From Bacteroidota bacterium (GTDB taxonomy: Bacteria; Bacteroidota; Bacteroidia; UKL13-3), in assembly GCA_030680835.1 (NCBI GenBank), contig JAUXUD010000050.1, positions 1 to 46,054 on the forward strand: a stretch of 46,054 nt of DNA, given 5' to 3'. The translations under genes and the position numbers were made by a program. The notes beneath the pieces were generated by a model. The model was not told the origin of the DNA, did not search any database, and was given only the letters and a program-made list of their open reading frames with translations. Below, one piece after another: positions 1,009 through 27,152 of the stretch (the stretch's first letter is position 1; each line of letters starts with the position of its first letter).

Positions 1009-2148
1009 ATGAAAGTAGCTTTAATAACCGGAATAACCGGTCAGGATGGTGCATACCTCGCTGAATTTTTATTGAAAAAGGGATATTTTGTACATGGGAT
1101 TAAACGCAGAAGTTCCTTGTTTAATACCGATCGCATAGATCATTTGTACCAGGATCCGCACGAAAAAAATGTAAACCTGAAATTGCATTATGGCGATTTA
1201 ACCGATTCAACCAATTTAATACGGATTATACAGGAAACGCAGCCGGATGAAATTTATAACCTGGCCGCCATGAGTCATGTGCATGTGAGTTTTGAAACCC
1301 CTGAATATACCGCCAATGCAGATGGTACCGGAGCCCTGCGGATTTTGGAAGCCATACGCTTATTGGGCCTTACAAAAAAAACAAAGCTGTATCAGGCTTC
1401 TACTTCCGAATTATACGGTTTGGTTCAGGAAGTACCCCAAAGCGAAACCACCCCGTTTTACCCGCGCTCCCCGTATGCAGTTGCCAAATTATACGCTTAC
1501 TGGATTACGGTAAACTACCGCGAAGCATACGGTATATTTGCCTGCAACGGCATCTTGTTTAATCATGAAAGTCCGGTAAGGGGTGAAACTTTTGTTACAC
1601 GAAAAATTACCCGTGCGGCTGCAAAAATTGCCCTGGGTTTGCAGGATAAATTGTTTTTGGGAAACCTCAACGCGCAACGCGACTGGGGTCATGCCAAAGA
1701 TTATGTTGAAGCCATGTGGTTGATTTTGCAACAGGAAAAGCCCGAAGATTTTGTAATCGCAACGGGTAAAACAACCTATGTACGCGATTTTGTGAAAATG
1801 GCATTTGCAGAAGCAGGCATTCAGCTGGCATTTAAAGGTAGCAATGAAAACGAAACAGGTTATGTGGCATCTGTTGATAAATCAAAACAGGAATCATTGG
1901 GCATTTTTGGTTTATCTGAATTAAAACCGGGAGATACCCTGGTAGCTGTTGACCCCAGATATTTCAGGCCTACCGAGGTTGACTTATTAATTGGTGACCC
2001 AACAAAGGCCAATACCCAATTGGGATGGATCCCCAAACATGATGTGCATTCGCTGGTAGCCGATATGATGCAAGGTGATCTGGAACTGATGAAGAAAGAT
2101 AAATTTTTAAAAGATTCGGGACATGCGATTCTCCGTTATTTCGAATAA
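1009..2148 (+). CDS. gmd: GDP-mannose 4,6-dehydratase
   Basis: The enzyme converts GDP-D-mannose to GDP-4-dehydro-6-deoxy-D-mannose, the first step toward GDP-L-fucose and related deoxy sugars for surface polysaccharide. It is a 379-aa extended SDR protein. The Rossmann motif TGITGQDG is at residues 7-14. The active site is visible as S131-T132-S133-E134 and the Y156-x3-K160 pair. [12 protein letters not shown] and [16 protein letters not shown] are family-specific nucleotide and tetramer loops. The usual SPRRGETF reads SPVRGETF here, a single change in an otherwise canonical loop. Length is slightly above the usual 345-375 because of extra residues around 275-310. The next gene starts 9 bp downstream, so co-transcription is likely. 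No GDP-fucose synthase gene is present beside it. Confidence 0.95.
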
Positions 2149-2157
2149 TATTATTTG

Positions 2158-4266
2158 ATGAAAAAGCTTGTCCTTATTTTATGTTTATTTTTATTGTGTT
2201 TAGCCCAAAGCATAGCACAGGTAACTGCCCAAAGCAAGTTTACCACTGCTGGCCGCTTGGGACTGAGTGTAAATAATTATGGCACCTATGGCAGGCCTAC
2301 GGTACGAAGCAATACGCAAGGTCCGCCCTCCATGGCATTTCCAAGAGGCAGCGGCATAGAACATTTGTTTGAAGCCGGCATTTGGATAGGTGCTCTGGTT
2401 GACGGACAAGTACGTGTAAGCACCAGCTCCGTTGATGCATCATCGGGTTATAGCACCGGCGGTGCCGGATTTGAATTTACACAACTGAGTACCATTAAAG
2501 AACGCTCAAAATTACCATCAAGCAGTAATTATTCGGCATCGGCCGTTTCGCACCAGGATTTTGTTTTTTCCTTAACCGACAGTTTTGTGGTAATTCCCGG
2601 AACTACTATTCCCATTAGTGGTCACCAGAATCCTTTAGGTGCAGTGATACACCTCGAAACCTATGCATGGAATTATTCCTTTGCTGATTTTTTTGTTTTG
2701 TGTAATTACGAAATCACCAATTTATCGGGCAAGCGATGGGATTCGGTATATGTAGGTACTTTCAGCGATCTGGTGGTACGCAATGTAAATGTAACCCGCG
2801 ATGCAGGCACTGCTTTTTTTAACAAGGGCCGCAATGGGGTCAACAAAAAATACCATGCATTGTATGCTTACGAAAGCTATGGCGACGATATCGATTTTAC
2901 CCGTTCCTATGGCGGCATTCAGTTTTTGGGCATAGACTGGAGGGGCCTGTTTTTTAATCCGGCCCGGCCCGATACCTTTCTTTCAAAAGGGCTGCCTGCG
3001 CCAAAGCTGAATTATAATTTCTGGAACTTCAACTCGGTTGCTGTACCTTGGAATACGCCCGGAAATGACCAGGAACGTTATTTGAAATTAAGCAGTAATA
3101 TAGATTCAAGCATATTGTTTGGAGGTGATGGTCCCATAGTGGGCATTCCGGCAAACTGGATGCAATTGCTGTCGGCGGGTCCGGTTGTAAATATTGAACC
3201 CGGCGAAAAGTTTACCTATACCATTGCATTTGTTTGTGCAAAGCAAAAAGAGCCCCTGAGTTATTTGCCTCCCTCGAGTACCAATATATTTACAAGTGCA
3301 GAATCTGAAAAAGAACTGACAGATAATTTTAAGCGGGTACGCTCAACTTATGTGGGTGAAGATGTAAATGAAGATGGCAGGTACCGCCCTGAATTGGACC
3401 TGAACCAAAACGGAAAATTAGACCGCTTTATTTTGCCTGAACCGCCCGAATCGCCCCTCACCAAAATAGTGACATCGGAGAATAAGATAGAAGTTTACTG
3501 GAGCAATAAATCGGAATACTCTTTAGACCCGATAACCCGCAAGCGTGATTTTGAAGGATACCGGATATACAGGAGCAATCCGGGAGATGATATGAACCTG
3601 AAAATATTGGACGAAGCAAATCTGATTGCTCAATGGGATTCGGCCGGAAATAATGTGGGTTTCAATAATGGTTTTGATGTAATTAAGCTGGCTGAACCCA
3701 AAGTATTTTCGGGAGATACTACAAAATATCATTACAAATACACCTTGGATAATTTATCGAATGGCTGGCAGTATCTGGTGGTAGTAACTGCATTTGATGA
3801 AGGAGATAAGGAACTGGGCGTGGAGCCCCTTGAATCATCTTATACCGAAAATGAAGTAAGGGCATTTCCGGGAACCTTAGCCAATGATTTTAACGATGCC
3901 CAGGCAAAGCGGGTGGGCGTATATCCCAATCCATACAGTACCACGGCAGCATGGGATGGAACCACTTCGCGCAGCAACAAAATATATTTTTACAATTTAC
4001 CCAATCGCTGCGAAATACACATTTATACCGCAAGCGGAGATTTGGTTGCAACGATAGCACACGACGGCAATAACTACAAAGGCGAGGGCATAGGCTGGAC
4101 AGACAAATACGGAAACACAGAACGCACAGTAATGAGTGGCGGCGAACACGCATGGGATTTATTGAGCAATACCAAAACGCAACTCATAACAGGAGTTTAT
4201 TTATTCACCGTAAAAGACCTGCAAAACGGACTCATGCAAAGTGGAAAGCTGGCGATCATCAAGTAG
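2158..4266 (+). CDS. Secreted T9SS type A sorted protein with FN3-like domain
   Basis: The first in-frame ATG is at 2158 (a TTG at 2155 would add one residue). The protein is about 702 aa and starts MKKLVLILCLFLLCLAQS, a clear Sec signal peptide cut near residue 20. The middle holds a calcium-binding-like stretch with DVNEDG near residue 402 and DLNQNGKLD near 417. An FN3-like sandwich follows (about 433-545, ending YLVVVTAFDEGD). The last 100 residues contain GVYPNPYS and GVYLFTVKDL and end KLAIIK, as in type A C-terminal T9SS sorting domains, so the product should be exported across the outer membrane. No catalytic motif was recognised and the substrate or role is unknown. A heptad-repeat array begins right after the stop codon. 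Confidence 0.82.
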   Translation: MKKLVLILCLFLLCLAQSIAQVTAQSKFTTAGRLGLSVNNYGTYGRPTVRSNTQGPPSMAFPRGSGIEHLFEAGIWIGALVDGQVRVSTSSVDASSGYSTGGAGFEFTQLSTIKERSKLPSSSNYSASAVSHQDFVFSLTDSFVVIPGTTIPISGHQNPLGAVIHLETYAWNYSFADFFVLCNYEITNLSGKRWDSVYVGTFSDLVVRNVNVTRDAGTAFFNKGRNGVNKKYHALYAYESYGDDIDFTRSYGGIQFLGIDWRGLFFNPARPDTFLSKGLPAPKLNYNFWNFNSVAVPWNTPGNDQERYLKLSSNIDSSILFGGDGPIVGIPANWMQLLSAGPVVNIEPGEKFTYTIAFVCAKQKEPLSYLPPSSTNIFTSAESEKELTDNFKRVRSTYVGEDVNEDGRYRPELDLNQNGKLDRFILPEPPESPLTKIVTSENKIEVYWSNKSEYSLDPITRKRDFEGYRIYRSNPGDDMNLKILDEANLIAQWDSAGNNVGFNNGFDVIKLAEPKVFSGDTTKYHYKYTLDNLSNGWQYLVVVTAFDEGDKELGVEPLESSYTENEVRAFPGTLANDFNDAQAKRVGVYPNPYSTTAAWDGTTSRSNKIYFYNLPNRCEIHIYTASGDLVATIAHDGNNYKGEGIGWTDKYGNTERTVMSGGEHAWDLLSNTKTQLITGVYLFTVKDLQNGLMQSGKLAIIK

Positions 4267-4268
4267 AA

Positions 4269-4391
4269 ATTTACGATTTACGAATTACGATTTACGAATT
4301 AAGATGTACAATGTACGATGTACGATGTACAATGTATGATGTACGATGTACGATGTGGGAGAGTGTGAGAGTTCAAGATTCATACTTCATA
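4269..4391. repeat. Degenerate heptad-repeat array (intergenic)
   Basis: Starting two bases after a stop codon, the sequence runs in 7-bp steps: ATTTACG, ATTTACG, AATTACG, ATTTACG, AATTAAG, then a switch to ATGTACA, ATGTACG, ATGTACG, ATGTACA, ATGTATG, ATGTACG, ATGTACG. After a GAGAGTGTGAGAG spacer come TTCATAC units that are complementary to GTATGA within the array. A plus-strand frame through it continues to 4409, but it is an accident of the period. Related arrays lie at 19024, 29820, 34112 and 34604. Confidence 0.85.
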
Positions 4392-4428
4392 CTTTCTGTT
4401 TCTGTGTAATCTTAGGGTATGCATAATT

Positions 4429-4468
4429 AAAAAAAGCAATGAACTGATTTTGGTTTGTTGCTTTTTTT
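4429..4468. terminator. Bidirectional intrinsic-terminator-like hairpin
   Basis: AAAAAAAGCAA (4429-4439) is the exact reverse complement of TTGCTTTTTTT (4458-4468). Inside, AACT and GGTT pair with one wobble around a GATTTT loop. A-tract and T-tract flank the stem symmetrically, so it could work in both directions. A near-identical hairpin is at 19162-19201, where the inner stem is AACC/GGTT, consistent with selection on pairing. Confidence 0.7.
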
Positions 4469-4645
4469 GAGGTAATACACAGCCACAAAAGTTAACAGGA
4501 GTTTTTAAATACAAATCTGTTTGTTGATTTGGAATACTGAAATAAAGCGGTAATCTTGTTAGAACAAATAAAAAACCAGGGTTACCTGCAAAACGGTAGT
4601 AAGTGACCCTGTAATTGGGAGGGGTATAAAGAAGTTATGCCGCAT
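4469..4645. repeat. Dispersed intergenic repeat, copy A (upstream of higBA)
   Basis: This copy shares TGAGGTAAT, CACAAAAG, ACAGGAGT, GGAATACTGAAATAAAGCGG and CTGCAAAACGGT with the copies at 19202, 20826 and 23881, and ATAAAGAAGTTATGC with the copy at 20826. GGTAATCTTG (4549-4558) and CAGGGTTACC (4577-4586) form a 10-bp stem with two G-T wobble pairs and an 18-nt loop. On the minus strand a stop-free frame reads LTRLPLYFSIPN, matching the other copies. The repeat ends about 100 bp before higB. See findings for interpretation. Confidence 0.8.
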
Positions 4646-4690
4646 TGCTTGGGCAAATTCCCTTCTCGCCAAGACAGGATTTTAATTAAA

Positions 4691-4722
4691 TTTGACTATT
4701 ATGTATTGTATACTTACCTTTG
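4691..4722 (+). promoter_or_regulatory. Promoter of higBA
   Basis: TTTG (4691-4694), a 20-bp spacer, and TACCTTTG (4715-4722) match the Bacteroidota -33/-7 consensus fully. The expected start site near 4729 lies about 18 bp before the higB ATG. HigA proteins usually repress their own operon, so an operator is expected to overlap this site, but no clear dyad was seen. Confidence 0.7.
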
Positions 4723-4746
4723 GCGTAAGTAACGCAGGACAATACT

Positions 4747-5028
4747 ATGATAATCTCGTTTGGGGACAAGGAAACTCAGAAAATTTGGGAAGGTAAGAGA
4801 ATTACGGGGCTGTCGACAGAAATCCAAGAGACTGCGCGCAGAAAATTGAGAATGCTAAACAACTCCCAAGACCTTAATGACCTGAAGATTCCACCTTCCA
4901 ATAAACTTGAAAAGTTGAAGGGCAATTTGAAAGACTATTATTCAATTCGGGTGAACATTCAATGGAGAATCATTTTTAAATGGAATAACGGCAATTCAGA
5001 GGAAGTTCAAATTATAGACTATCATTAA
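4747..5028 (+). CDS. higB: HigB-type toxin (RelE/ParE superfamily)
   Basis: This 93-aa protein has the compact RelE-like fold signature of HigB. An early IWEGKR is followed by a helical segment with ARRKLRMLNN, then LKGNLKDYYSIRVN, QWRIIFKW and a terminal VQIIDYH. HigB toxins are ribosome-dependent mRNA endonucleases that slow growth when their antitoxin is lost. The toxin-first order and the 12-bp gap to an Xre-type antitoxin are typical of higBA. The gene has its own promoter and lies in an accessory patch between repeats. The family call is strong; the exact cleavage activity is inferred from the family. Confidence 0.9.
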   Translation: MIISFGDKETQKIWEGKRITGLSTEIQETARRKLRMLNNSQDLNDLKIPPSNKLEKLKGNLKDYYSIRVNIQWRIIFKWNNGNSEEVQIIDYH

Positions 5029-5040
5029 AAATATCGTGAC

Positions 5041-5340
5041 ATGAAAAAACTAAAAAACATTCATCCCGGAGAAATTTTACTTGAGGAATTTCTTGTTCCA
5101 TTAGAAATTACAGCTTATCGACTTTCTAAGGACATAGGTATTCCTCAGACTCGTGTTTCGGAAATTATTAAAGGGAATAGACGTATTACTGCGGACACAG
5201 CATTAAGACTGTCAAAATACTTTGGAAACAATGCAAAATTCTGGCTTGGCTTGCAAGACGACTTTGATTTAGAGGAAGAAAATAATCAGAAGAAAGCTGA
5301 GCTAAACGCCATAAAACAGCATGACCGCAACGCTGCATAA
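5041..5340 (+). CDS. higA: HigA-type antitoxin (Xre-family HTH)
   Basis: The 99-aa protein starts with NIHPGEILLEEFL, the standard HigA opening, and carries a Cro/C1-type helix-turn-helix (about residues 20-65) with IGIPQTRVSEIIKGNRRIT as recognition region. NNAKFWLGLQ is the family's conserved post-HTH segment. It should bind and neutralise HigB and repress the operon. It follows higB by 12 bp. Its TAA stop is part of the left arm (CATAAC) of an imperfect palindrome that continues to 5460. Confidence 0.93.
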   Translation: MKKLKNIHPGEILLEEFLVPLEITAYRLSKDIGIPQTRVSEIIKGNRRITADTALRLSKYFGNNAKFWLGLQDDFDLEEENNQKKAELNAIKQHDRNAA

Positions 5341-5460
5341 CAAAGGCTAACCAAAAGTGGCCGCATTGTATTTCGCGGGATAAATTTGTGTAAGTTTGTT
5401 ATGGTTACACGTTGGTAGTTTTGTTACATCCGTCACCTTCTGGTAGGCTCAACCGTTATG
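5336..5460. repeat. Imperfect 125-bp palindrome directly after higA
   Basis: CATAAC at 5336-5341, overlapping the higA stop, is the exact reverse complement of GTTATG at 5455-5460. Further in, GGCTAACCAAAAG (left) resembles the reverse complement of CTTCTGGTAGGCT (right) with small mismatches. The centre is unpaired. No ORF is present. The architecture (stop codon overlapping a short core, second inverted pair inside, about 120 bp) recalls integron attC sites, but the cores do not meet that consensus exactly and no integrase is in the window. Confidence 0.5.
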
Positions 5461-6487: not shown

Positions 6488-6729
6488 ATTATCTACCTTC
6501 TTTTATACCGTTAATGGGGACAGTTTTGCGGCATCACATCCAAAATAACCCATAGTATTGCACTCATGTTCGGGATTAAGAAATTAATGACGCTTCAACG
6601 GTAACAAATGAATTTCCAAATAATATTGGCCAATAATTTGCAACGCTCACTAATTTGATTAAGTTTGAATAAACAAATGTGCGATTAAGCAATTGTTTTA
6701 CATTTACTTTTTTTAATTTAGCCGAGGGG

Positions 6730-8631
6730 ATGAAAAGCTTAGTAAAACTAGTTTGTCTGCTGGCATTTGCTTTAATAACACTTAGAGCAAATGCATTATT
6801 CCATAATGATGATGGTGTGCCGCAAAAAAACACGGAAGAGAAGTTTACAAATGCGAGCATACAAACACGGCTCGATAGCCTGAAACTTAAACTTGCCGAC
6901 ACTGTGCGGATTCGCATCATGTACCAGTTGGCCAATCTTCTTGGTTCACAAAAGCCTCATGATGCCTTGAAGTTTGCTGAAATGGCCCTCAGATTGTCGG
7001 ACAGCCTTGGCTATATGAAGGGTAAAATTTCTTCACTTTTAAATAGCGGGAAAGCCCAAATGGTACTTGCAGATTATCCTAAAGCCCTTCACTACTGGAT
7101 TGAAACCCATAAACTTGCCAGGCAGACCCATAATTACAATATAGAGGGAATTGTGCTTCAAAATATCGGAGGCTTATACGTTCACCTCAAAAAATATGAC
7201 CTTGCCAGAAAATATTACACAGAAGCGTTGCTTATAAAAAAACGCCATTCACTGGAGAAGGACCAGATAGGTTCTTACCTTGGACTTGGGATTGTGTACC
7301 TCAAACAGGAAAAGTACCGGGAAAGTAATTTTTACTTTTTCAAGGCATTGAATATCGCCAGCAAAGACAATGATCCCAATGATCTCTCTTCGATATTTTC
7401 AAATATTGGAACTTTGTATGCAAATTTAAAGCAGTATGATACGGCCATTTTTTATTACAAAAAGGCGATTGAAATGGAGGAAAAGGGAGTATCAAATGTC
7501 TGGGGAAGTTATATTGCTTATATGAACCTCGGTTTAATGTATGTTGAAAAATCGCAGACAGATGAGGGATTAAAGTATTTGCTGAAGGCGAAAAAAAATC
7601 TTGAAAGCTCAACTGTGAGGTTTGACGGGGCCGGTATCTACCTGGCACTTTCAGAAGCGTTTGCAAAGAAAAAGGATTTTGAAAAGGCATACGCCAATCA
7701 CCGTGTTTACCACAGTCTCAGTGATTCTGTCGTAAATGAAACGATTACCAGACAGATTTCTGAAATGCAAGCACAATTTGAAAGCAGGCAAAAGGAAGAA
7801 CAGATAAAAATCCTACAGAAAGACAAGGAACTTGCCGAGGCTAAAACAAGGAAGCGGGAGCTTCTCGATAATTCGCTTCTTGCAGGTCTTGGCCTGGTAA
7901 TGATTATTTGTATTATTCTATACAGAAGTGTGAGGAATAAACTGAAACTGAACGGCATGCTTACCCTCAAGAATATTGAAATAGAAAGCCAGCGTCTTGA
8001 AATAGAAATGAAGAGCCGCGTGTTAAACGAATTTAATAAAGAGCTGATGAAGGAAAACATTTCGGCACGTTATGAAACCCTTAAAAGCAAGATCAATCCG
8101 CATTTCCTTTTTAACTGCCTGAACACATTAACAACACTTATTGTAAAAGACCGGAAGGCCGCAGTTTCCTTTGTTGGCATCTTTTCCAAACTATACAGAA
8201 ACATTCTTTCTCTCAGCGACCATCAATTTATTTCCCTGCGTAAGGAACTTGAGCTAACCGATAATTACCTGGTACTGCAGGAAACCAGGTTTGGCGAGAA
8301 CCTGAAGGTTATAAAAAACATTTCTGAAAATGATCTCGACAAACTGGTGCCTCCTTTTTCTTTGCAACTTCTAATTGAGAATGCGATTAAGCATAACATG
8401 ATCTCGCAGAATCACACATTGAAGGTTATAATCGAAGCAAACAATGGGAAGTTAATCGTTAGCAATAACCTTCAGCCCCGGTTTCATCCGGAGCCTTCAA
8501 CAGGTATAGGACAAAAAAATATTATCGAGCGTTATAAACTGGCCGGCTTTGAAAGACCCGTTTTTACAATCGAAAAAGATCGTTATATTGCTACTATTCC
8601 GTTGTTCGAAAAAGAAATTATTGAAACATGA
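6730..8631 (+). CDS. LytS-type sensor histidine kinase with periplasmic TPR domain
   Basis: The ATG at 6730 is preferred over the one at 6679 because it follows a GAGGGG purine run and starts directly with the signal peptide MKSLVKLVCLLAFALITL. The 633-aa product has tetratricopeptide repeats (about residues 75-330), a coiled coil (about 345-378), one membrane span (LAGLGLVMIICIILYRS, about 383-400), a cytoplasmic coiled coil and a His_kinase domain with INPHFLFNCLN (His458), followed by an ATPase region with LIENAIKHN (near 548). It should autophosphorylate and pass phosphate to the next gene's product, which overlaps it by 4 bp (ATGA). The ligand sensed by the TPR region is unknown. Confidence 0.92.
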   Translation: MKSLVKLVCLLAFALITLRANALFHNDDGVPQKNTEEKFTNASIQTRLDSLKLKLADTVRIRIMYQLANLLGSQKPHDALKFAEMALRLSDSLGYMKGKISSLLNSGKAQMVLADYPKALHYWIETHKLARQTHNYNIEGIVLQNIGGLYVHLKKYDLARKYYTEALLIKKRHSLEKDQIGSYLGLGIVYLKQEKYRESNFYFFKALNIASKDNDPNDLSSIFSNIGTLYANLKQYDTAIFYYKKAIEMEEKGVSNVWGSYIAYMNLGLMYVEKSQTDEGLKYLLKAKKNLESSTVRFDGAGIYLALSEAFAKKKDFEKAYANHRVYHSLSDSVVNETITRQISEMQAQFESRQKEEQIKILQKDKELAEAKTRKRELLDNSLLAGLGLVMIICIILYRSVRNKLKLNGMLTLKNIEIESQRLEIEMKSRVLNEFNKELMKENISARYETLKSKINPHFLFNCLNTLTTLIVKDRKAAVSFVGIFSKLYRNILSLSDHQFISLRKELELTDNYLVLQETRFGENLKVIKNISENDLDKLVPPFSLQLLIENAIKHNMISQNHTLKVIIEANNGKLIVSNNLQPRFHPEPSTGIGQKNIIERYKLAGFERPVFTIEKDRYIATIPLFEKEIIET

Positions 8632-9365: not shown

Positions 9366-9438
9366 TTTTCATTCCAATGTTGAACCCATCCAGCTTCTGA
9401 AGCAATATTTTGGCGTTGCAGATTCGGTCAAAAAAAAA

Positions 9439-9468
9439 ACCGTTTTAGGTCCCTATTTTACAGTTTCA
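9439..9468. promoter_or_regulatory. Candidate LytTR operator (two direct repeats)
   Basis: ACCGTTTTA (9439-9447) and ACAGTTTCA (9460-9468) match at 7 of 9 positions and start 21 bp apart, two helical turns. LytTR regulators bind pairs of about 9 bp with a central GTT separated by 12-13 bp, which this fits; the last two bases of each half deviate from the AgrA-type consensus. The location between the LytTR gene and the giant gene adds support. Confidence 0.5.
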
Positions 9469-9561
9469 TCCAAAAACATGATTGAAAACTTTTGCCGCAT
9501 CCTGCAGTGGTTAACTTCGTATAAAACTTACGAATTAAACCAATCATTAAACCTTATTCAT

Positions 9562-12500
9562 ATGAAAGAATCTCCGCACCTGAGAAGAATGTTATGGGTT
9601 ATTTTGTTCTCCGTATCATTCAGCTGTTATGCTACTCAGCTCAGTGGTGTTTACACCATAGACAGCAGCGCAACGGCATCGTCAACTAACTTCCACAGCA
9701 TGACCTCCGCCATCATTTACATGACGAGCGGTGGCAGCCGCCCTGACAGTGGCCCGTCGAACTCATCACCATATGGTGTAAGCGGGCCGGTTGTTTTCAA
9801 TTTTACCGGTTCAATCAATACTTACCAGGAACAGGTAACAATACCGAACATTCCTGGCGCAAGTGATGTAAATACAATCAGATTCAATGGTTATGGCATA
9901 GCAAGGATACAGTATGCGCCGGTGGCAGGATCTCCACACGTGATCAAGCTCGACAATGCCAGGTTCGTGATCCTTGACAACATGATCATCGCCATAACAT
10001 CCAGCTCATTCGGCTGGGGAGTCCATTTTATCAATAACTCCGACAGCAACATGGTTAAAGGCTGTATCATAGACTTCAGTGCTGTAACGTCCGTTACGAG
10101 CCCTTATGGGGTTGGCATAGCCATGACCAACAGCACAACTTCAGCAACAATTGCGGGCAACAACGGTATCGGCAACCGGATTATCAACAACCAGATCATT
10201 GGTATTGCAAGCGCCGGCCCATATTACGGTATTACCAACTGCATGAGCTCGAACTCCATTTATTCAGCCAATAAATTCATTAACAATACCATTTCAAATT
10301 ACTATGCATGCGGCATTTACAGCATTAATGGCAACGGAACCATCATAAGCCGTAATTACCTATCCAGGCCATTAAGGTCCAGCAGCACCACATTCTATGG
10401 AATCTTCAATACCTCACTCAATAATGACACGATCACGAATAATATCGTTGAAAGACTATTTGATGGTATACTCACTAGTACGTTGACAGGTTATGCATTT
10501 TATCTCGATGCCACCGGTACAACTACTTCCCAGACCAGCCTTGTGGCAAACAACATCGTGAGGAATATCAACTCAACATCGCAGAGCGGAAGCTTTTACG
10601 GATTTTATTCATCTACACCGCAGTACATACAGTTCTATCACAATACAGTTTCTTTTGACTACCCGTCGGGCAGCAACCGTTCTTATTACGGCCTCTATTT
10701 TGGATTTGCACCGCTGGCAGGAACCGAAGTAATAAACAACATCTTCAGCTTGTCAACACCGACCGGTGGTGCAAAATATGGCTTATATCTTGCGTATCCA
10801 ACGGTTACGGGCCTCATCAGCAACAATAATGATGTTTATGTAACATCGCCTGGTTACTTTGGATACCTGGGGGCAAACTATGCAACACTTGCACAGTGGC
10901 AGGCTGCAGCAGGCAGCGTCCTGGACACGGCAAGCACCGATGCCAACCCTTTATTCTCAGAAATTGCAACAGGCAACGTTGTTCCTAAAGAAGCAGACCT
11001 GAAGAATAAAGGTGCAAACCTGTTTTCTGTTGTACCGTATGACTTCACCGGTGCTCCACGAGATACCACGCCTGATATCGGGGCTTATGAATTCGCACTT
11101 GTGAACAATGATGCTGCAACTACGATGCTCTCAGCTCCCACAGTTCCTTTTGCACCCGGGACTTATCCGATCACGGTTAAGCTGAAGAACAACGGCTTGA
11201 ATGCGCTAACATCAGCAACCATCAACTGGTCAGTTAACGGGGTAGCCCAGACGCCTTTCCTTTATTCCGGGAGCCTGAATACATCCATACGCTCAACAGC
11301 TATTACTCTCGGCAGTGTCACATTCACTGCGGGCATAAGCGTGAACATCATGGTGTGGTCAACAGTTCCGAACGGAGTCAGCGATCCTAACAACGCAAAC
11401 GATACATCATACATATATAATCTTTATTCACTGCTTACGCCGGGAACGTATACACTCAATAAGAACAGCTCTGCGGCAGGTAACTTTGCCAGCTTTAACC
11501 AGCTGGCCGGAGCACTGAACGGCGGGGTTTCCGGACCGGTAACAATCAACGTTGTGCCTGGGTCGGGACCTTATACCGAGCAGGTTGCATTCCCTGTCAT
11601 TCCGGGCTGTACCCAGGTGAATAATGTTGTGATCAACGGTAACAATGAAATACTGAGGTATAACAATACCAATGTAACCTCACTGTATTTGATCAAGCTC
11701 AACGGAACGGATAATCTAACGATCAAAAAACTGCGCATTGTTCCGTTGAATCAGACTTACGGCTGGGGTATCTGGCTAACGAACCAGGCAGACACAAATA
11801 CCATCGACAGCTGCGTATTCGACTACAGCAACATGACCACCACCCAAGTGAATTCGGGAGGTATCGTATTTAGCAGTTCGCCCACCTCAACCGCAGCAGC
11901 AGGGGCAAACGGAAGCTGGAATACAATCAGCAACAACCAGATGTTCGGCGGACCATCAGGTGGACTCTATTATTGTATCGCCCTCGTTCCAGCTACCAGT
12001 AATTCGGTTCTCTCCGCCAACAGAATCATCAACAACCGTTTCCAGGATTTTTATGCTTATGGCATTTATATGAATTCGACCTGGGGCACTTTAATTAAAG
12101 GCAATGATTTTTCACGACCAACCAAAACAACCGTAACTGCGTTCTTCGGTGTTTACGCCTTCAATAGCAATAAGGCAGACACTTTTGACAGTAATAAATT
12201 CCACACACCTTTCGGCGCTAACCCCACAGGTACAGGAACCGCATATGGGATAAATTTTGCAGCGCCAAACTTCCCATCAGGAAACTACACAGTTATACGA
12301 AACAACCTGTTCTATGACTTCCGCACAAACGGCACTATACATGGAATCTATGGAGTAAACTTCCAGAACATCTACATTGTTCATAATACTTTCAATTTTG
12401 TCATGCCGAATTCTCCGACCATTTATTGTATCAACTGGGCTTTTGTTGCGCCAAGCGCGCCCAGTTATGTGTATAATAACATTTTCAATATCAATGCCGG

Positions 12501-15500
12501 CGGTACAACCAACAAGTTCGCACTTTATTTTGGAGCGACAGGAACCAACTATTTCACCAACAGCAATGTATTTAACATATCGGGCACAAATGCTTATATA
12601 GGTTATTATTCTGCAAACTACAGCACACTTTCCACCTGGCAGACTGCAAATACCGCCAGTTATGACCTTAACAGTATCCAGACTGACCCACGGCTTATCA
12701 GCACGACAGCGCCAGAACTGATGATCCCGACTGAACCTTCTATCAAAAGCATCGGTAACAACATGCTCACTTATTGCCCGGTAGACATCCTGAGTAATGC
12801 ACGTGATATTGCCCCGGATCCAGGTGCGTATGAATTTATTCCTTCATACAACGATGCAGGTATTCCGACACTAAGCTCTCCAACAGTACCAATGCCGACA
12901 GGCAGCAGCAGCATTGACATCAGGTTGAAGAACTACGGTTTATCAACGCTCACTTCAGCCAATATTAACTGGTCATTGAACGGCATAACGCAGACAGGAA
13001 CCTCATTCTCCGGAACGCTTTCCCGAGATTCCACAGCTACTATTGCATTAGGAACACTTACCCCAACTTTGGGAAATATCTATAAAGTTAAAGCCTGGTC
13101 AAGCCAGCCGAACGGCACCACAGACACCCTGCCATATAACGACTCTATTGTCAGATATATTGGAACTGCGATGAATGGCATATATACCATTAATCCGGCA
13201 TTACCGGATTCCGTGCGTAATTTCAAGACCTACGACCAGGCTGTTCAGACTCTTTACGCCTTTGGAATTAATGCACCAGTAACCTTTATGGTTAGCAATG
13301 GTATTTATAACGAGCAGGTTTCATTCACAGGAGTAATACCTGGTTCAGACGCAACAAATACAGTAACCTTTATTGGCGCCGATTCTGCCAATTGCAGGCT
13401 GGTTCACGACGGAATAGTCAGGAGAGCAACAGTTCTTTTTAATAACGCCAAAAACATCACATTCCGGAATATGTCAATAGAATGTACAGGGATTTCAGGA
13501 GGATATGGTGTACAGTTTATTAACTCAGCCGACAGTAATGTCATTTCTAAATGCAGAATCCGGGTTCCACTCCTGACTTCATTCATATCAACCTTCGCAC
13601 CTGTTGTTTCTTCTGCTTCGCTTTTTGCCTCAAATTCTGCCGGCAATAATGGAAGCTATCTTACCATTGATAGCTGTACGCTCACCGGAGGTTATTATGG
13701 TGTGAGCCTGTATAACAGTTTAAGTCTACGTGGAAACAATAACCGGATCAGATACTGCAATATCGTACAGCCATATTTTTATGGTTTGTCCCTGTTTTAC
13801 CAGAACGACGTTGTCATTACGCAAAACACAATCAATGGCGCAGGGAATAATCTCAACTCTACCGTTTTTGGCTATTACCTGAACACTTGCGACAGTGGTT
13901 TTACCCTAACTAAAAATACATTGGCAGCGGTCCCCGGAGGTTACGGAATTTATTATACAAAATGCAATGGCACTTCCTCATCACCTAACATAATTGCCAA
14001 CAATATGGTTCAGATCGGCGCTGCGACTTCTACGAGCTTTGGCATTTATGATGCCGGCTCAAACAAATATACAGACCTTGTTTACAATGCTGTAAACAAT
14101 ACCAGTGGTGATGCGTCTTATGTAAGCACTGCCCTCTATTTTAACTATGCCAATGCCACAACATCCAGCAATCTGCGTGTGAACAATAACATTTTTGCAG
14201 CACCAAACGGAGCCTTGAGCGTATACTGCCCTAACTCAACAGCGCTGTCAACCTCATCCATCACGCTTAACAACAATGTGTATTATTCGCCTTCAAGCTA
14301 TCCTTTCCGGATCGTCGGCACGATCTATCCTACACTTTCAAGCTATGCGAGCGCTATGAGCACATTCATTACAGGATCAGACTCCAGCAGTATATTCCAG
14401 AATCCTGCATTCTTCTCGGCTACCAACCTGAGAACAATCACACCACAGCTGGGCAATATTGGAACACCGATCCCTACCGTAACAGATGACATTGACGGGC
14501 AAACCAGGAGCTCATCAGCACCTGACCCTGGCGTTTATGAATTCACTGCACCGCCGAATGATGCAGGCGCAATTGCATTTGTTCAGCCAACGCAACCTTT
14601 GATTCCGGGGCTTAGTGATTTAAAGGTTGTGATTCAGAATTTCGGTACAAACACTCTCAGCTCAGCGGTTGTTACATACCGGATTGATACTGTAGTAAGG
14701 TCGAGAACATATTCAGGAAGCATCCTTCCGGGCGGCACTGATACGGTGCTGTTCAATGCTACAAGTGGTCCTGGCGGAAGCAGCCAGCGGTATAACTTCA
14801 CAGGAAGCCTGGTTTCCATGAAAGCATGGACATCATCACCAAACAGCGTTACGGACATTCAGCCGCTGAATGATACGTTTGCGACCAGCATATGCGGTGG
14901 ATTATCCGGAACTTATACGATAAACCCATCAGGAGGAGGAACAAATAATTTCACATCTATTGCAGAAGCAGTGAATAAACTAATGTGCGGAGGTGTCTAT
15001 GGTCCCGTTGCATTTAACATCAGTACCGGAACCTATACCGGGCAGATTGACATTCCAACTGTTGCCGGGGTGAGCGCCACAAACACAGTTGTTTTCAAAT
15101 CAGTGAGCAATAACCCGGCTGATGTGATTATCAACTCAAGCACATCCTCGCTCTCGGATAATTATACGATCAGATTGCGTGGCGTATCCTACATGACATT
15201 CCAGTCATTAACCTTGAAAAACAGCAGCTTCTCATCTTGCCGCGTGCTTTCAATCAATAAGTTCCCGTCGTCAAACATCAATACAAGTAACCTTGTAGTG
15301 CGGAACTGTATCATTGAAGGTTCGCCATCATCGCCCCAGGGTGACGATGCATTTGCGCTTATTTATGCAACAAATGGTGATAACCCTACTAATCTGTCGT
15401 TTATCAGAAATCGCTTAATTTATGGCGCATATGGAATTGTTATAGGCGGGCAGAACATTGTCGGTCAGTACAGCCCGGGACTGACAATTGATTCAAATAT

Positions 15501-17337
15501 TTTCTCTCTGCCTATCTGGGTAGCCATATACATGCAGAACCGCCTTGCTCCCATCATTCGTTATAACACGATTGATGGCAGCGCTACCACAGGCACATAC
15601 GGGATCTATCTGACTTCCGTTTCACAGGGCACAGAAGTAAGGGGGAATATCATAAACATGCATAGCCCTACAGCAGGAACTTATGGTCTGTTCGTAAACT
15701 ACAATAATTATTACAGTGAGCCGGGAACGGGCCTTTTCATCAATAATGTAATTAACATGACACATAGTACAACCGTACAGAATGGCATTTACCTGATTAA
15801 CTCCTCCCAGGCAACCCTACTGAACAACACGGTTCATTGCGCATCAAGTTCAACCAGCAACAATGCTCTTTATATATCCGGTAATGCAGCCGGTACTTCT
15901 CCTATTGTTCAGTCAAATTCAATCCAGATCATCAATAATCTCCTTTACACACAATACGGATATGCAGCTAATTATGCAGGTGCGTTTTCTGCTCCTGCAG
16001 TGACTGTATCAAATAATAACCTTTATTATTCAGGTTCAGTTAACCGGGCTTCCGTCAACAGCGTGAATTATTTTTCGGTTTATTCCTTCAGGAATTCTCT
16101 CTATCCCGGTTCAGACAACAGGTCATTGTTCACTTTACCGGTGTTCACATCCACAAACAACCTGCGGCCTGATATAACCAGCCCAAGTGCGTGGGCGGTA
16201 AACGGGCGCGGACAGCAGTCTGCACTGGTCACAAATGATGTTCTTCAGAATTCCCGCAGTTCGGCAATCAACACCGGCGCACCTGATATCGGTGCTTATG
16301 AATTTACACCTGTTTCAGAACCGCCTGCGTCAGTATTTACCGGCGGCATAGGCTTAGGAAATACCCAGTACATGGTTGATTATGGCGATACTGTTGCATG
16401 GGTAACATGGGGTACCTCAGGAACACTTCCAGATGCGCTCAGTGGTAAATATTATCCAGGATCATTAGTAGCGAATCCATCTGCGTACAACGTGAATCCC
16501 AACAAAAACTACATGGATGTGAAGTGGAATATCCAGGGCACCAACGGTTCGTCTTACAGCTATGGCCTCGGGCTGAAATACTGGGGAACAATGGTGGGCA
16601 AGCTCACCAGCCAGAGCAATATCCGCCTTGCTAAGCTTGATTCAGGTGCTACCACATGGAACTATTATCCGGTCACTTCAACCGTTGATACTGTAAACAG
16701 GACGATCACAATTTCCTCTTTATCGGGCTTCTCTAACTTTACAGGAACCGACCTCACTAACCCGCTGCCGGTAAAGCTTAGCAGCTTTGATGCCCGCCTT
16801 ACCGGAAGCGATGTTTTGTTGAAATGGCAAACTGCAAGTGAACTCAATACAAGCTATTTTGAAATTGAGCGTTCGAGTGATCATGCCAACTTTGAAAATG
16901 CAGGCAGGGTAAATGGAAAAGGTAACAGCAATACTATAGTGAATTATCTTTTTACAGATCGTGATGCTGTTTCATTGGGTGCAACTGTTCTGTATTACCG
17001 CCTCAAGCAGATAGATAAGGATGGAGCATACCAGTACTTTGGACCAATTGCAGTGAACATGAACACTGAAATAAATGACTTCAGCGTAATTGTTTATCCT
17101 GTTCCTTTTACATCGGAAGTGAATCTCGATATCATTAATCCCACAAGCGGAAAAGTAAATGTTGTGATAAGAGATATGGAAGGCAGAATAATCTTTACTA
17201 AAGATATTGATACACCTAAAGGATTCAGCAAAGCCAAACTCGAGGCTCTGAATACTGTTAAAGACGGCATCTATTTCTTAAATATGAGCATAAACGGAAA
17301 TACCGTTATAAGGAAGCTTGTTAAAACGAGCAACTGA
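9562..17337 (+). CDS. Giant T9SS-sorted multi-module parallel beta-helix surface protein
   Basis: The ATG at 9562 is chosen over 9478 because MKESPHLRRMLWVILFSVSF is a signal peptide. The 2,591-aa product has four related modules that each open with a G-x-Y-T-(I/L) header and an NF-x-S/T phrase (starting near residues 28, 628, 1205 and 1783). Each continues as an Asn/Gly/Ser-rich right-handed beta-helix (repeated N-N-x-I phrases) and closes with DIGAYEF, DPGAYEF or DPGVYEF. Three CARDB/Ig-like linkers (for example LKNNGLNALTSATINWSVNG) separate them. After residue 2400 comes a sandwich domain (LPVKLSSFDARL, LKWQTASELNTSYFEIERS), then a type A T9SS sorting domain (VYPVPFTSEVNLDII to IRKLVKTSN). 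Probably an adhesin or carbohydrate-binding surface protein. A strong terminator follows. Confidence 0.88.
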   Translation: MKESPHLRRMLWVILFSVSFSCYATQLSGVYTIDSSATASSTNFHSMTSAIIYMTSGGSRPDSGPSNSSPYGVSGPVVFNFTGSINTYQEQVTIPNIPGASDVNTIRFNGYGIARIQYAPVAGSPHVIKLDNARFVILDNMIIAITSSSFGWGVHFINNSDSNMVKGCIIDFSAVTSVTSPYGVGIAMTNSTTSATIAGNNGIGNRIINNQIIGIASAGPYYGITNCMSSNSIYSANKFINNTISNYYACGIYSINGNGTIISRNYLSRPLRSSSTTFYGIFNTSLNNDTITNNIVERLFDGILTSTLTGYAFYLDATGTTTSQTSLVANNIVRNINSTSQSGSFYGFYSSTPQYIQFYHNTVSFDYPSGSNRSYYGLYFGFAPLAGTEVINNIFSLSTPTGGAKYGLYLAYPTVTGLISNNNDVYVTSPGYFGYLGANYATLAQWQAAAGSVLDTASTDANPLFSEIATGNVVPKEADLKNKGANLFSVVPYDFTGAPRDTTPDIGAYEFALVNNDAATTMLSAPTVPFAPGTYPITVKLKNNGLNALTSATINWSVNGVAQTPFLYSGSLNTSIRSTAITLGSVTFTAGISVNIMVWSTVPNGVSDPNNANDTSYIYNLYSLLTPGTYTLNKNSSAAGNFASFNQLAGALNGGVSGPVTINVVPGSGPYTEQVAFPVIPGCTQVNNVVINGNNEILRYNNTNVTSLYLIKLNGTDNLTIKKLRIVPLNQTYGWGIWLTNQADTNTIDSCVFDYSNMTTTQVNSGGIVFSSSPTSTAAAGANGSWNTISNNQMFGGPSGGLYYCIALVPATSNSVLSANRIINNRFQDFYAYGIYMNSTWGTLIKGNDFSRPTKTTVTAFFGVYAFNSNKADTFDSNKFHTPFGANPTGTGTAYGINFAAPNFPSGNYTVIRNNLFYDFRTNGTIHGIYGVNFQNIYIVHNTFNFVMPNSPTIYCINWAFVAPSAPSYVYNNIFNINAGGTTNKFALYFGATGTNYFTNSNVFNISGTNAYIGYYSANYSTLSTWQTANTASYDLNSIQTDPRLISTTAPELMIPTEPSIKSIGNNMLTYCPVDILSNARDIAPDPGAYEFIPSYNDAGIPTLSSPTVPMPTGSSSIDIRLKNYGLSTLTSANINWSLNGITQTGTSFSGTLSRDSTATIALGTLTPTLGNIYKVKAWSSQPNGTTDTLPYNDSIVRYIGTAMNGIYTINPALPDSVRNFKTYDQAVQTLYAFGINAPVTFMVSNGIYNEQVSFTGVIPGSDATNTVTFIGADSANCRLVHDGIVRRATVLFNNAKNITFRNMSIECTGISGGYGVQFINSADSNVISKCRIRVPLLTSFISTFAPVVSSASLFASNSAGNNGSYLTIDSCTLTGGYYGVSLYNSLSLRGNNNRIRYCNIVQPYFYGLSLFYQNDVVITQNTINGAGNNLNSTVFGYYLNTCDSGFTLTKNTLAAVPGGYGIYYTKCNGTSSSPNIIANNMVQIGAATSTSFGIYDAGSNKYTDLVYNAVNNTSGDASYVSTALYFNYANATTSSNLRVNNNIFAAPNGALSVYCPNSTALSTSSITLNNNVYYSPSSYPFRIVGTIYPTLSSYASAMSTFITGSDSSSIFQNPAFFSATNLRTITPQLGNIGTPIPTVTDDIDGQTRSSSAPDPGVYEFTAPPNDAGAIAFVQPTQPLIPGLSDLKVVIQNFGTNTLSSAVVTYRIDTVVRSRTYSGSILPGGTDTVLFNATSGPGGSSQRYNFTGSLVSMKAWTSSPNSVTDIQPLNDTFATSICGGLSGTYTINPSGGGTNNFTSIAEAVNKLMCGGVYGPVAFNISTGTYTGQIDIPTVAGVSATNTVVFKSVSNNPADVIINSSTSSLSDNYTIRLRGVSYMTFQSLTLKNSSFSSCRVLSINKFPSSNINTSNLVVRNCIIEGSPSSPQGDDAFALIYATNGDNPTNLSFIRNRLIYGAYGIVIGGQNIVGQYSPGLTIDSNIFSLPIWVAIYMQNRLAPIIRYNTIDGSATTGTYGIYLTSVSQGTEVRGNIINMHSPTAGTYGLFVNYNNYYSEPGTGLFINNVINMTHSTTVQNGIYLINSSQATLLNNTVHCASSSTSNNALYISGNAAGTSPIVQSNSIQIINNLLYTQYGYAANYAGAFSAPAVTVSNNNLYYSGSVNRASVNSVNYFSVYSFRNSLYPGSDNRSLFTLPVFTSTNNLRPDITSPSAWAVNGRGQQSALVTNDVLQNSRSSAINTGAPDIGAYEFTPVSEPPASVFTGGIGLGNTQYMVDYGDTVAWVTWGTSGTLPDALSGKYYPGSLVANPSAYNVNPNKNYMDVKWNIQGTNGSSYSYGLGLKYWGTMVGKLTSQSNIRLAKLDSGATTWNYYPVTSTVDTVNRTITISSLSGFSNFTGTDLTNPLPVKLSSFDARLTGSDVLLKWQTASELNTSYFEIERSSDHANFENAGRVNGKGNSNTIVNYLFTDRDAVSLGATVLYYRLKQIDKDGAYQYFGPIAVNMNTEINDFSVIVYPVPFTSEVNLDIINPTSGKVNVVIRDMEGRIIFTKDIDTPKGFSKAKLEALNTVKDGIYFLNMSINGNTVIRKLVKTSN

Positions 17338-19438: not shown

Positions 19439-20818
19439 ATGCAAAATACAATCAACAAAATAGAAGAATTGAGCTCAACTCTAAAGAAAGTTCGTCCTAT
19501 GAAGGCTGAGTTTCAAAAAAAGTTGGACAGGAAGTTTCGACTTGAATTCAATTACAACTCTAATCACATAGAGGGAAACACCCTAACATACAGTGAAACA
19601 GAGTTGCTCCTAATTTTTGACGAGACGAAAGGGAACCACACTTTGCGTGAGTATGAAGAAATGATAGCACATGATGTTGCTTTACAGTTAGTAAGCGATT
19701 GGGCTGACGACAAAGAGAGACCTTTAACAGAAGCCAACATCAAAAATCTCAATGAAGTTATGCTTGTAAAACCATTTTGGAAAGATGCAATTACTCCTGA
19801 CGGACAGAAGTCAAGACGACTGATAAAAGTTGGAGACTATAAAGAATTTCCCAATTCAGTTCAGTTAAGCAATGGAGAAATTTTTGAATATGCGTCTGTA
19901 ACAGACACACCAATTCTCATGGGAGAATTAATACAATGGTATCGTACCGAAGAGCAAAAAAACGAATTTCATCCTGTTGCTTTAGCGGCAATATTGCATT
20001 ACAAGTTAGTTCGCATACATCCATTTGACGATGGCAATGGCAGGATTTCCCGACTGCTCATGAATTATGTTTTGTTAAAAAATAATTTGCCTCCTGTTGT
20101 GATTAAATCTGCTGACAAAAGAAATTACCTTTCAGCACTAAACAGTGCCGATGCAGGCGACTTAAATTCATTCATTAAATATATTGCACAACAATTAGTG
20201 TGGAGTTTAGAAATAAGTATTAAAGCAGCCAATGGAGAAAGTATAGAAGAACCTGATGATGTAGAAAAGGAAATTTCAATTTGGAAAAAGCAAGCTGCAC
20301 AAAATGTTGTGAATGCAACACATCGTAGTGATGACTTGATTTATGAAATATATACCAATGGTGTTCAAGAAATGTTTGAACAGTTTGCAGACAAGCACAA
20401 ACAATTTTATGACTTGTTTCACAAATCAGGTTGCTATACATACAAGAACAGTGGAGGACAAGAAGGAACTCAATGGCTGACTGATGAAATTTATAAAATT
20501 GTTTTGAACCCCAAAGCACTGTTTGTCGATGCTGGTGAAGTTCCTGAATTAGCTATCGCTGATGATACTTTCAGAAACATTTTCATCCAGGTAAATTTGC
20601 AGGAATACAAATACAACGAAACAGACCCGTTTACAATTCAACCCCGACTAATGATTGAGTTTCATTCATACAAATACGAGGTGCAATACGGGAATAAAAA
20701 AATTGAAAAAGTTTATGGTGAGTTGCTTAACGCTGACGAAAGAAAAGAAATAATAGCGGACTGCCTAAAAGCTGTGTTTGCAGAAATCAAAGTTAAATCT
20801 GGAAATGGTAAGCATTAA
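19439..20818 (+). CDS. Fic-domain protein, class II (autoinhibited) AMP-transferase type
   Basis: The 459-aa protein has the full Fic motif HPFDDGNGRISR at residues 194-205, the active site for transferring AMP from ATP to target hydroxyls. An N-terminal S41-N-H-I-E45-G fits the inhibitory (S/T)xxxE(G/N) helix, which makes it a class II enzyme with intramolecular control. LDRKFRLEFNYNSNHIEGN is the typical Fic_N opening. Residues about 280-459 form an extra C-terminal domain of unknown type. Such proteins act as toxins or as signalling enzymes on endogenous targets. It is a single gene between repeat copies B and C, which fits an accessory or mobile origin. Confidence 0.92.
   Translation: MQNTINKIEELSSTLKKVRPMKAEFQKKLDRKFRLEFNYNSNHIEGNTLTYSETELLLIFDETKGNHTLREYEEMIAHDVALQLVSDWADDKERPLTEANIKNLNEVMLVKPFWKDAITPDGQKSRRLIKVGDYKEFPNSVQLSNGEIFEYASVTDTPILMGELIQWYRTEEQKNEFHPVALAAILHYKLVRIHPFDDGNGRISRLLMNYVLLKNNLPPVVIKSADKRNYLSALNSADAGDLNSFIKYIAQQLVWSLEISIKAANGESIEEPDDVEKEISIWKKQAAQNVVNATHRSDDLIYEIYTNGVQEMFEQFADKHKQFYDLFHKSGCYTYKNSGGQEGTQWLTDEIYKIVLNPKALFVDAGEVPELAIADDTFRNIFIQVNLQEYKYNETDPFTIQPRLMIEFHSYKYEVQYGNKKIEKVYGELLNADERKEIIADCLKAVFAEIKVKSGNGKH

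Positions 20819-24956: not shown

Positions 24957-27152
<2,196 letters not shown>

Follow-up and report, generated by a model that had tools for sequence, protein, structure and literature searches.

Sequence comparison indicated that the LytTR response regulator encoded in the window (the whole stretch of DNA analysed here, 46,054 nucleotides) most likely controls the giant gene that adjoins it. The spacer between the two genes carries a direct repeat in three copies with a period of 21 bp. Arrays of this period occupy the corresponding spacer in all five members found of the regulator's clade and are absent after 17 other LytTR genes. We consider it probable that the spacer holds a three-copy LytTR operator, at which the regulator, phosphorylated by the kinase encoded upstream, would bind and activate the giant gene, and that this gene would be the main or only target.

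Gene organization of the window

The window corresponds to contig C18 of a 4.3-Mb genome that contains 13 LytTR matches in total. Three genes with the same direction succeed each other, encoding a TPR-sensor kinase, a LytTR response regulator and a giant protein that combines a beta-helix stretch with a T9SS sorting domain (Table 1). The kinase was 30–36% identical to the kinases of four related loci, and the alignment with these was better suited by a start at ATG 6730 than at GTG 6679. The regulator contained a receiver domain (Response_reg, 61.2 bits against a cut-off of 30.2) and a LytTR DNA-binding domain (71.1 bits against a cut-off of 22.6). It was 45–50% identical to its four relatives, and the phosphoacceptor Asp54 was invariant in the alignment of the five regulators. 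The C-terminal sorting domain of the giant protein was recognized as T9SS type A by both Por_Secre_tail (31.9 bits, cut-off 27) and TIGR04183 (33.6 bits, cut-off 23). Translation of the giant gene likely starts at ATG 9562 rather than at the first ATG (9478), since the former gives a signal-peptide-like opening and agrees with the N-termini of the orthologues in G057:C20 and G036:C57. With this start, the spacer between regulator and giant gene comprises positions 9366–9561; its predicted RNA structure was not significant (z −1.2).

Table 1. Positions in the window of the genes and of the predicted regulatory features.
Feature	Position	Strand	Remarks
TPR-sensor histidine kinase	6679..8631	+	650 aa from GTG 6679; TPR_12 and His_kinase above cut-offs
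LytTR response regulator, 245 aa	8628..9365	+	4-base overlap with kinase gene; Response_reg and LytTR above cut-offs
Operator copy 1 (predicted), CAGATTCGGTC	9419..9429	+	Repeat comparison, matrix triple, longest direct repeat
Operator copy 2 (predicted), CCGTTTTAGGT	9440..9450	+	First repeat of the preliminary description; register 9441 fits too
Operator copy 3 (predicted), CAGTTTCATCC	9461..9471	+	Second repeat of the preliminary description; longest direct repeat
Promoter-like match TTTG-N17-TAACTTCG (hypothetical)	9491..9519	+	One mismatch to the −7 consensus; ~20 bp past the array
Giant T9SS cargo gene	9562..17337	+	2591 aa from ATG 9562 (2619 aa from ATG 9478); Beta_helix and Por_Secre_tail above cut-offs

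Elsewhere in the window, a gene for a HigB-like toxin precedes one for a helix-turn-helix antitoxin-like protein upstream of the kinase (4747–5340), a Fic/DOC-family protein is encoded at 19439–20818, and a protein of 725 aa containing two peroxidase (PF00141) stretches at 24975–27152.

Relatives of the regulator and their gene layout

The regulator was searched for in 64 genomes of the family (the order being represented by the same 64) and in 395 genomes of the class. A profile built from the members (A1) was searched against 5 genomes of the order of G139, 395 of the phylum and 394 of the class, the genome draws overlapping. For the phylum and both class searches, scores were obtained for seven candidates per genome at most. 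Four further loci with the unit were found, three in the same family (G057:C33, G037:C5 and G036:C36) and one in another family and order (G139:C16). Each of them encodes a kinase of 608–616 aa and a 244-aa LytTR regulator, followed by a short spacer and a gene for a protein of 1835–3034 aa with a Por_Secre_tail domain. The preliminary description had proposed a LytTR operator through which the TPR-kinase/LytTR pair would be tied to a single giant T9SS protein, and the recurrence of both the layout and the 21-bp repeat in all four other clade members found argues for such a connection.

The five regulators formed one clade (support 100/99) in a tree of 21 sequences, which took in all but one of 22, the omitted one having a stop inside its frame. 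No further clade member was detected in the searches of the family, the order of G139, the class and the phylum, those of the class and phylum covering at most seven candidates per genome. With profile A1, four members scored 420–447 bits and all other candidates at most 287, a separation to be read with the profile having been built from the members themselves. A contig search returned 15 loci at 27–41% identity. The regulator of G360 scored 233.8 bits against that of the window, inside the member range of 228–261, and joined the member branch without support (47/13); its locus encodes a kinase of 345 aa, continues downstream with a convergent gene and lacks an array (best pair 5.5), and it was counted as a non-member. 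The clade sample consists of five members, two of which are close relatives.

Direct-repeat array in the spacers

The preliminary description had noted two 9-mers, ACCGTTTTA (9439–9447) and ACAGTTTCA (9460–9468). Both are indeed present between the giant gene and the LytTR gene (end of the stop codon, 9365), with their starts 21 bp apart. Taken as the complete operator, the pair was too short: the two 9-mers correspond to copies 2 and 3 of the array, and copy 1, further upstream, had been missed. A mechanical search for direct repeats in the spacer returned 9416–9434/9458–9476 as the longest (19 nt, 74% identical). These two stretches contain copies 1 and 3 together with flanking bases and lie 42 bp, or 2 × 21, apart. 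When the window was scored with the matrix, lags of 22 (16.9) and 20 (13.7) exceeded that of 21 (13.4), so that copy 2 may be positioned one base later. The three copies are thus arranged at 21-bp steps, or at 22 and then 20 bp, compared with 21 bp in the four relatives. This arrangement agrees with the spacing claimed earlier to fit LytTR operators, for which the excerpts available of the source describe repeats of 9–11 nt with 11–13 nt between them and no single consensus common to the sites (PMC4847170).

The suggestion of GTT as the conserved core had to be abandoned. GTT-N18-GTT occurs 12 times on the plus and 38 times on the minus strand of the window (50 in total). Its conservation in orthologous spacers had been set in advance as a check; it was absent from three of the four and present in another register in G036. 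These spacers rule out GTT as the shared core, which is closer to TT(C/T)(A/G) within CACTTTCGG. An exact-pattern search that hit only this site in its own genome was discounted as evidence, since the pattern had been fitted to the site.

Considered alone, the window does not distinguish the repeat from chance: 101 of 300 dinucleotide shuffles contained a lag-21 repeat as good as that of its spacer, and the case therefore depends on the comparison with the relatives. All five spacers contain a direct repeat of roughly CACTTTCGG with a 21-bp period, and it is this array that the window shares with its relatives. There are three copies in the window and in G139, and two each in G057, G037 and G036, all of which fell in register in a MAFFT alignment of the spacers. 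The distance from the stop of the regulator gene to the start of the array is 53 bp in the window and 6–9 bp in the other four loci. Without supervision, a lag of 21 was the best of 33 lags over the five spacers (z 4.4, reached by 0 of 200 shuffles). It was first in four leave-out sets too (reached by 0, 1, 0 and 0 of 300 shuffles) and remained first when the spacer of the window was left out. Per member, it was the best of nine lags in four of five, the window being the exception. The best lag-21 pair after the regulator's stop scored 13.3–27.3 with the matrix in the five members vs. at most 11.5 in the 17 non-members. The non-member stretches, which were 130 and 150 bp long and may include coding sequence, showed no lag-21 signal as a set (z −0.4). 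A mild excess at lag 22 was observed in the same set (z 2.8, the highest of 33 lags).

AT-rich spacers with runs of A and T can be expected to yield imperfect repeats, which the choice of register would then make alike. Besides the shuffle result for the window alone, this explanation by chance could draw on the seven aligned pairs, whose columns were on average 66% identical, and on the weak scores of the sequence-only model described below. It would leave unexplained why lag 21 ranked first over the five spacers, with and without the window, why this signal was absent from the 17 controls, and why the array occurs at the same place in four loci. We regard chance as an unlikely origin of the array.

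Ranking of the array and number of targets

In leave-one-out rankings, which are somewhat favourable because the register was chosen after all five loci had been seen, the matrix from the other four loci placed the window triple first of 92,000 (21.5 bits; next 14.3) and the G139 triple first of 28,894 (16.5 vs. 12.8 for the next). Ranked by pairs, G037 and G036 were first, the G139 pairs second and fifth of 28,936, and the window pairs third (9419/9440) and 21st (9440/9461, the pair originally described) of 92,042; the G057 pair, whose first copy contributed 1.0 bit, was 17th of 33,936. For a sequence-only model made without the window (R2), the site was the top hit within the window, although at an E-value of 0.23. 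Genome-wide, the window site was not among the two hits of this model, both of which were inside ORFs. With default filters, R2 found nothing at E ≤ 10 near the giant orthologues (21 sources), a negative that carries no weight because the window's own site was likewise missed. As judged from these comparisons, it is the position and the period of the array that convince, whereas its sequence alone does not.

With a model comprising all sites (R1), the array was the best hit in each of the five genomes, as it must be by construction. R1 gave 20 lesser hits in these genomes (150 first-look candidates being scored per genome), and the seven of these 20 that were looked at were all inside ORFs. 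No array was found upstream of the kinase genes (best pair ≤5.0 bits; 110–124 bp scanned in G036 and G037), which speaks against autoregulation. At seven of the 12 other LytTR loci of the window's own genome, the scanned best pairs reached 8.2–15.6 with the full matrix vs. 21.0 and 20.1 for the window pairs. The location of the lesser R1 hits inside ORFs and the absence of an array before the kinase genes suggest that the regulator has few targets, perhaps one.

Proposed mode of control

In the proposed mechanism, the kinase would phosphorylate the LytTR regulator, which would then bind the repeat copies on one face of the DNA, 21 bp being two helical turns, either as a dimer or as alternative or adjoining dimers. 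The third in-phase copy would leave room for a second dimer or allow a choice of sites. Binding would occur just upstream of a Bacteroidota-type promoter, for which a −7 consensus of TAnnTTTG is given in the excerpts available of PMC9723704, and would activate the T9SS gene at 9562, probably the main or only target. If the promoter-like match in Table 1 were used, copy 3 would sit ~60 bp before the transcription start. The window contains six such matches vs. 3.76 expected, a number that is not significant and represents no excess. A 14-nt inverted repeat (TGGTTAACTTCGTA/TACGAATTAAACCA, 9508–9542, 86% complementary, 7-nt loop) lies over the promoter-like match, between the array and the giant's ATG, and its string TTCGTATAAAAC recurs in the spacer of G037.

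The same periodicity of two helical turns would also be expected of a phased A-tract or curved-DNA element, acting as a UP-like or architectural site rather than as a sequence-specific operator. An A10 run follows copy 1 in the window and an A8 run follows copy 1 in G139, and the gaps in the other loci are T/A-rich. The invariant columns of the aligned pairs, however, are the C and TT positions and the A before copy 2, mostly outside the A/T gap, and among the spacers examined the element is confined to those of one regulator clade. We regard this explanation as very unlikely.

A genuine LytTR operator might alternatively have another main duty, such as repressing the giant gene, controlling read-through from the regulator gene, or serving a different LytTR regulator. 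The number of LytTR matches in the genome would provide other candidate regulators, and a search of the spacer revealed no terminator-like site, so that read-through is possible. Nevertheless, the array tracks this regulator clade and not the other LytTR neighbours of giant orthologues, and the lack of an array before the kinase genes likewise speaks against such a duty, which we judge very unlikely. As to the sense of control by the adjoining regulator, activation is likelier than repression.

Comparison with known LytTR systems

YpdA, the kinase of the YpdA/YpdB system of Escherichia coli, is not known to contain TPR repeats. In the excerpts available, this system resembles the window in having a LytTR regulator, a 21-bp period, a TTTC core and a target outside the regulator operon; it differs in that the two copies are perfect and that the target is a transporter gene, not one for a surface protein. 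The YpdB site at PyhjX consists of a directly repeated GGCATTTCAT, its two copies being separated by 11 bp (PMC4847170). AgrA of Staphylococcus is likewise a LytTR regulator acting on imperfect direct repeats, whereas its consensus, (TA)(AC)(CA)GTTN(AG)(TG), is unmatched in the window, where no pair of this type occurs (consulted parts of PMC8826819 and PMC4227749). For the proximal AgrA repeats, a centre some 60 bp upstream of the start of transcription is reported (PMC4227749), similar to the distance proposed here for copy 3. In LytTR regulatory systems such as HdrRM of Streptococcus mutans, direct repeats mostly 12 and sometimes 11 or 13 bp apart are located just before the promoter, as proposed here; these systems, as portrayed in the accessible part of the source, are however one-component with a membrane inhibitor and are autoregulatory, while no array precedes the kinase gene of the window (PMC6193735). 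Among Bacteroidota, the two-component system FimS/FimR of Porphyromonas gingivalis is reported to bind and activate directly the promoter of a surface-structure gene, mfa1 (PMC1974823, in part). The NCBIfam FimS model (NF053520) matched residues 63–425 of the window kinase with 76.1 bits, far below its cut-off of 600.

In titles and abstract openings of the LytTR literature combined with T9SS, TPR, SprB or Bacteroidetes, no description of a kinase–LytTR–giant unit was found. To our knowledge, little is known about what sets the timing of giant cargo protein production. The operator layout is that of an ordinary LytTR site; it is less usual to find such a site paired with giant T9SS proteins that differ between loci. 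The unit combines a TPR sensor, a single predicted target and an operator that can be recognized from the sequence, and represents a small testable system. Its footprint, a 21-bp array with a CACTTTCGG-like core directly past the regulator gene, can be used to screen the surroundings of other LytTR genes in the phylum.

Giant cargo and its proposed exchange

The five genomes contain between 117 and at least 150 T9SS sorting-domain matches each, so that a neighbouring T9SS gene is by itself no rarity; among the T9SS matches listed, open frames of at least 1800 aa were in the minority. The giant proteins of the clade members are only partly alike. That of the window was 31% identical over 1085 aa to the giant of the G057 cassette and 28% over 761 aa to that of G139, and its best agreement with those of G036 and G037 was in the C-terminal 190 aa; the latter two were 71% identical to each other over 1542 aa. 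Furthermore, an orthologue of the window giant occurs in G036 at C57 without the cassette, and C36 of the same genome carries the cassette together with another giant. Taken together, this indicates that regulator and operator were kept while the cargo differs. We tentatively propose, as a possibility we would not yet favour, that the TPR-kinase, the LytTR regulator and the phased multi-copy operator constitute a self-contained cassette which evolution has re-paired with different giants, the cargo being exchanged.

Long orthologues of the window giant (about 36–46% identical) are common in the family. At 17 of 20 orthologue loci, no kinase or regulator match was present in the stretch covered, and 20 of 20 stretches further downstream were likewise without such a match, several of the stretches being cut by contig ends. 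An orthologue of the window giant adjoins another LytTR cassette in G060 (L105 11368–15678), G057:C20 (L107 2207–6473) and G024 (L091 about 1148–5348). Besides a TonB-receptor-like protein of about 808 aa, this other cassette encodes a kinase (about 345 aa) and a LytTR regulator (about 255 aa); the TonB-receptor-like protein has carboxypeptidase-regulatory-like domains and a TonB-plug match just below the cut-off.
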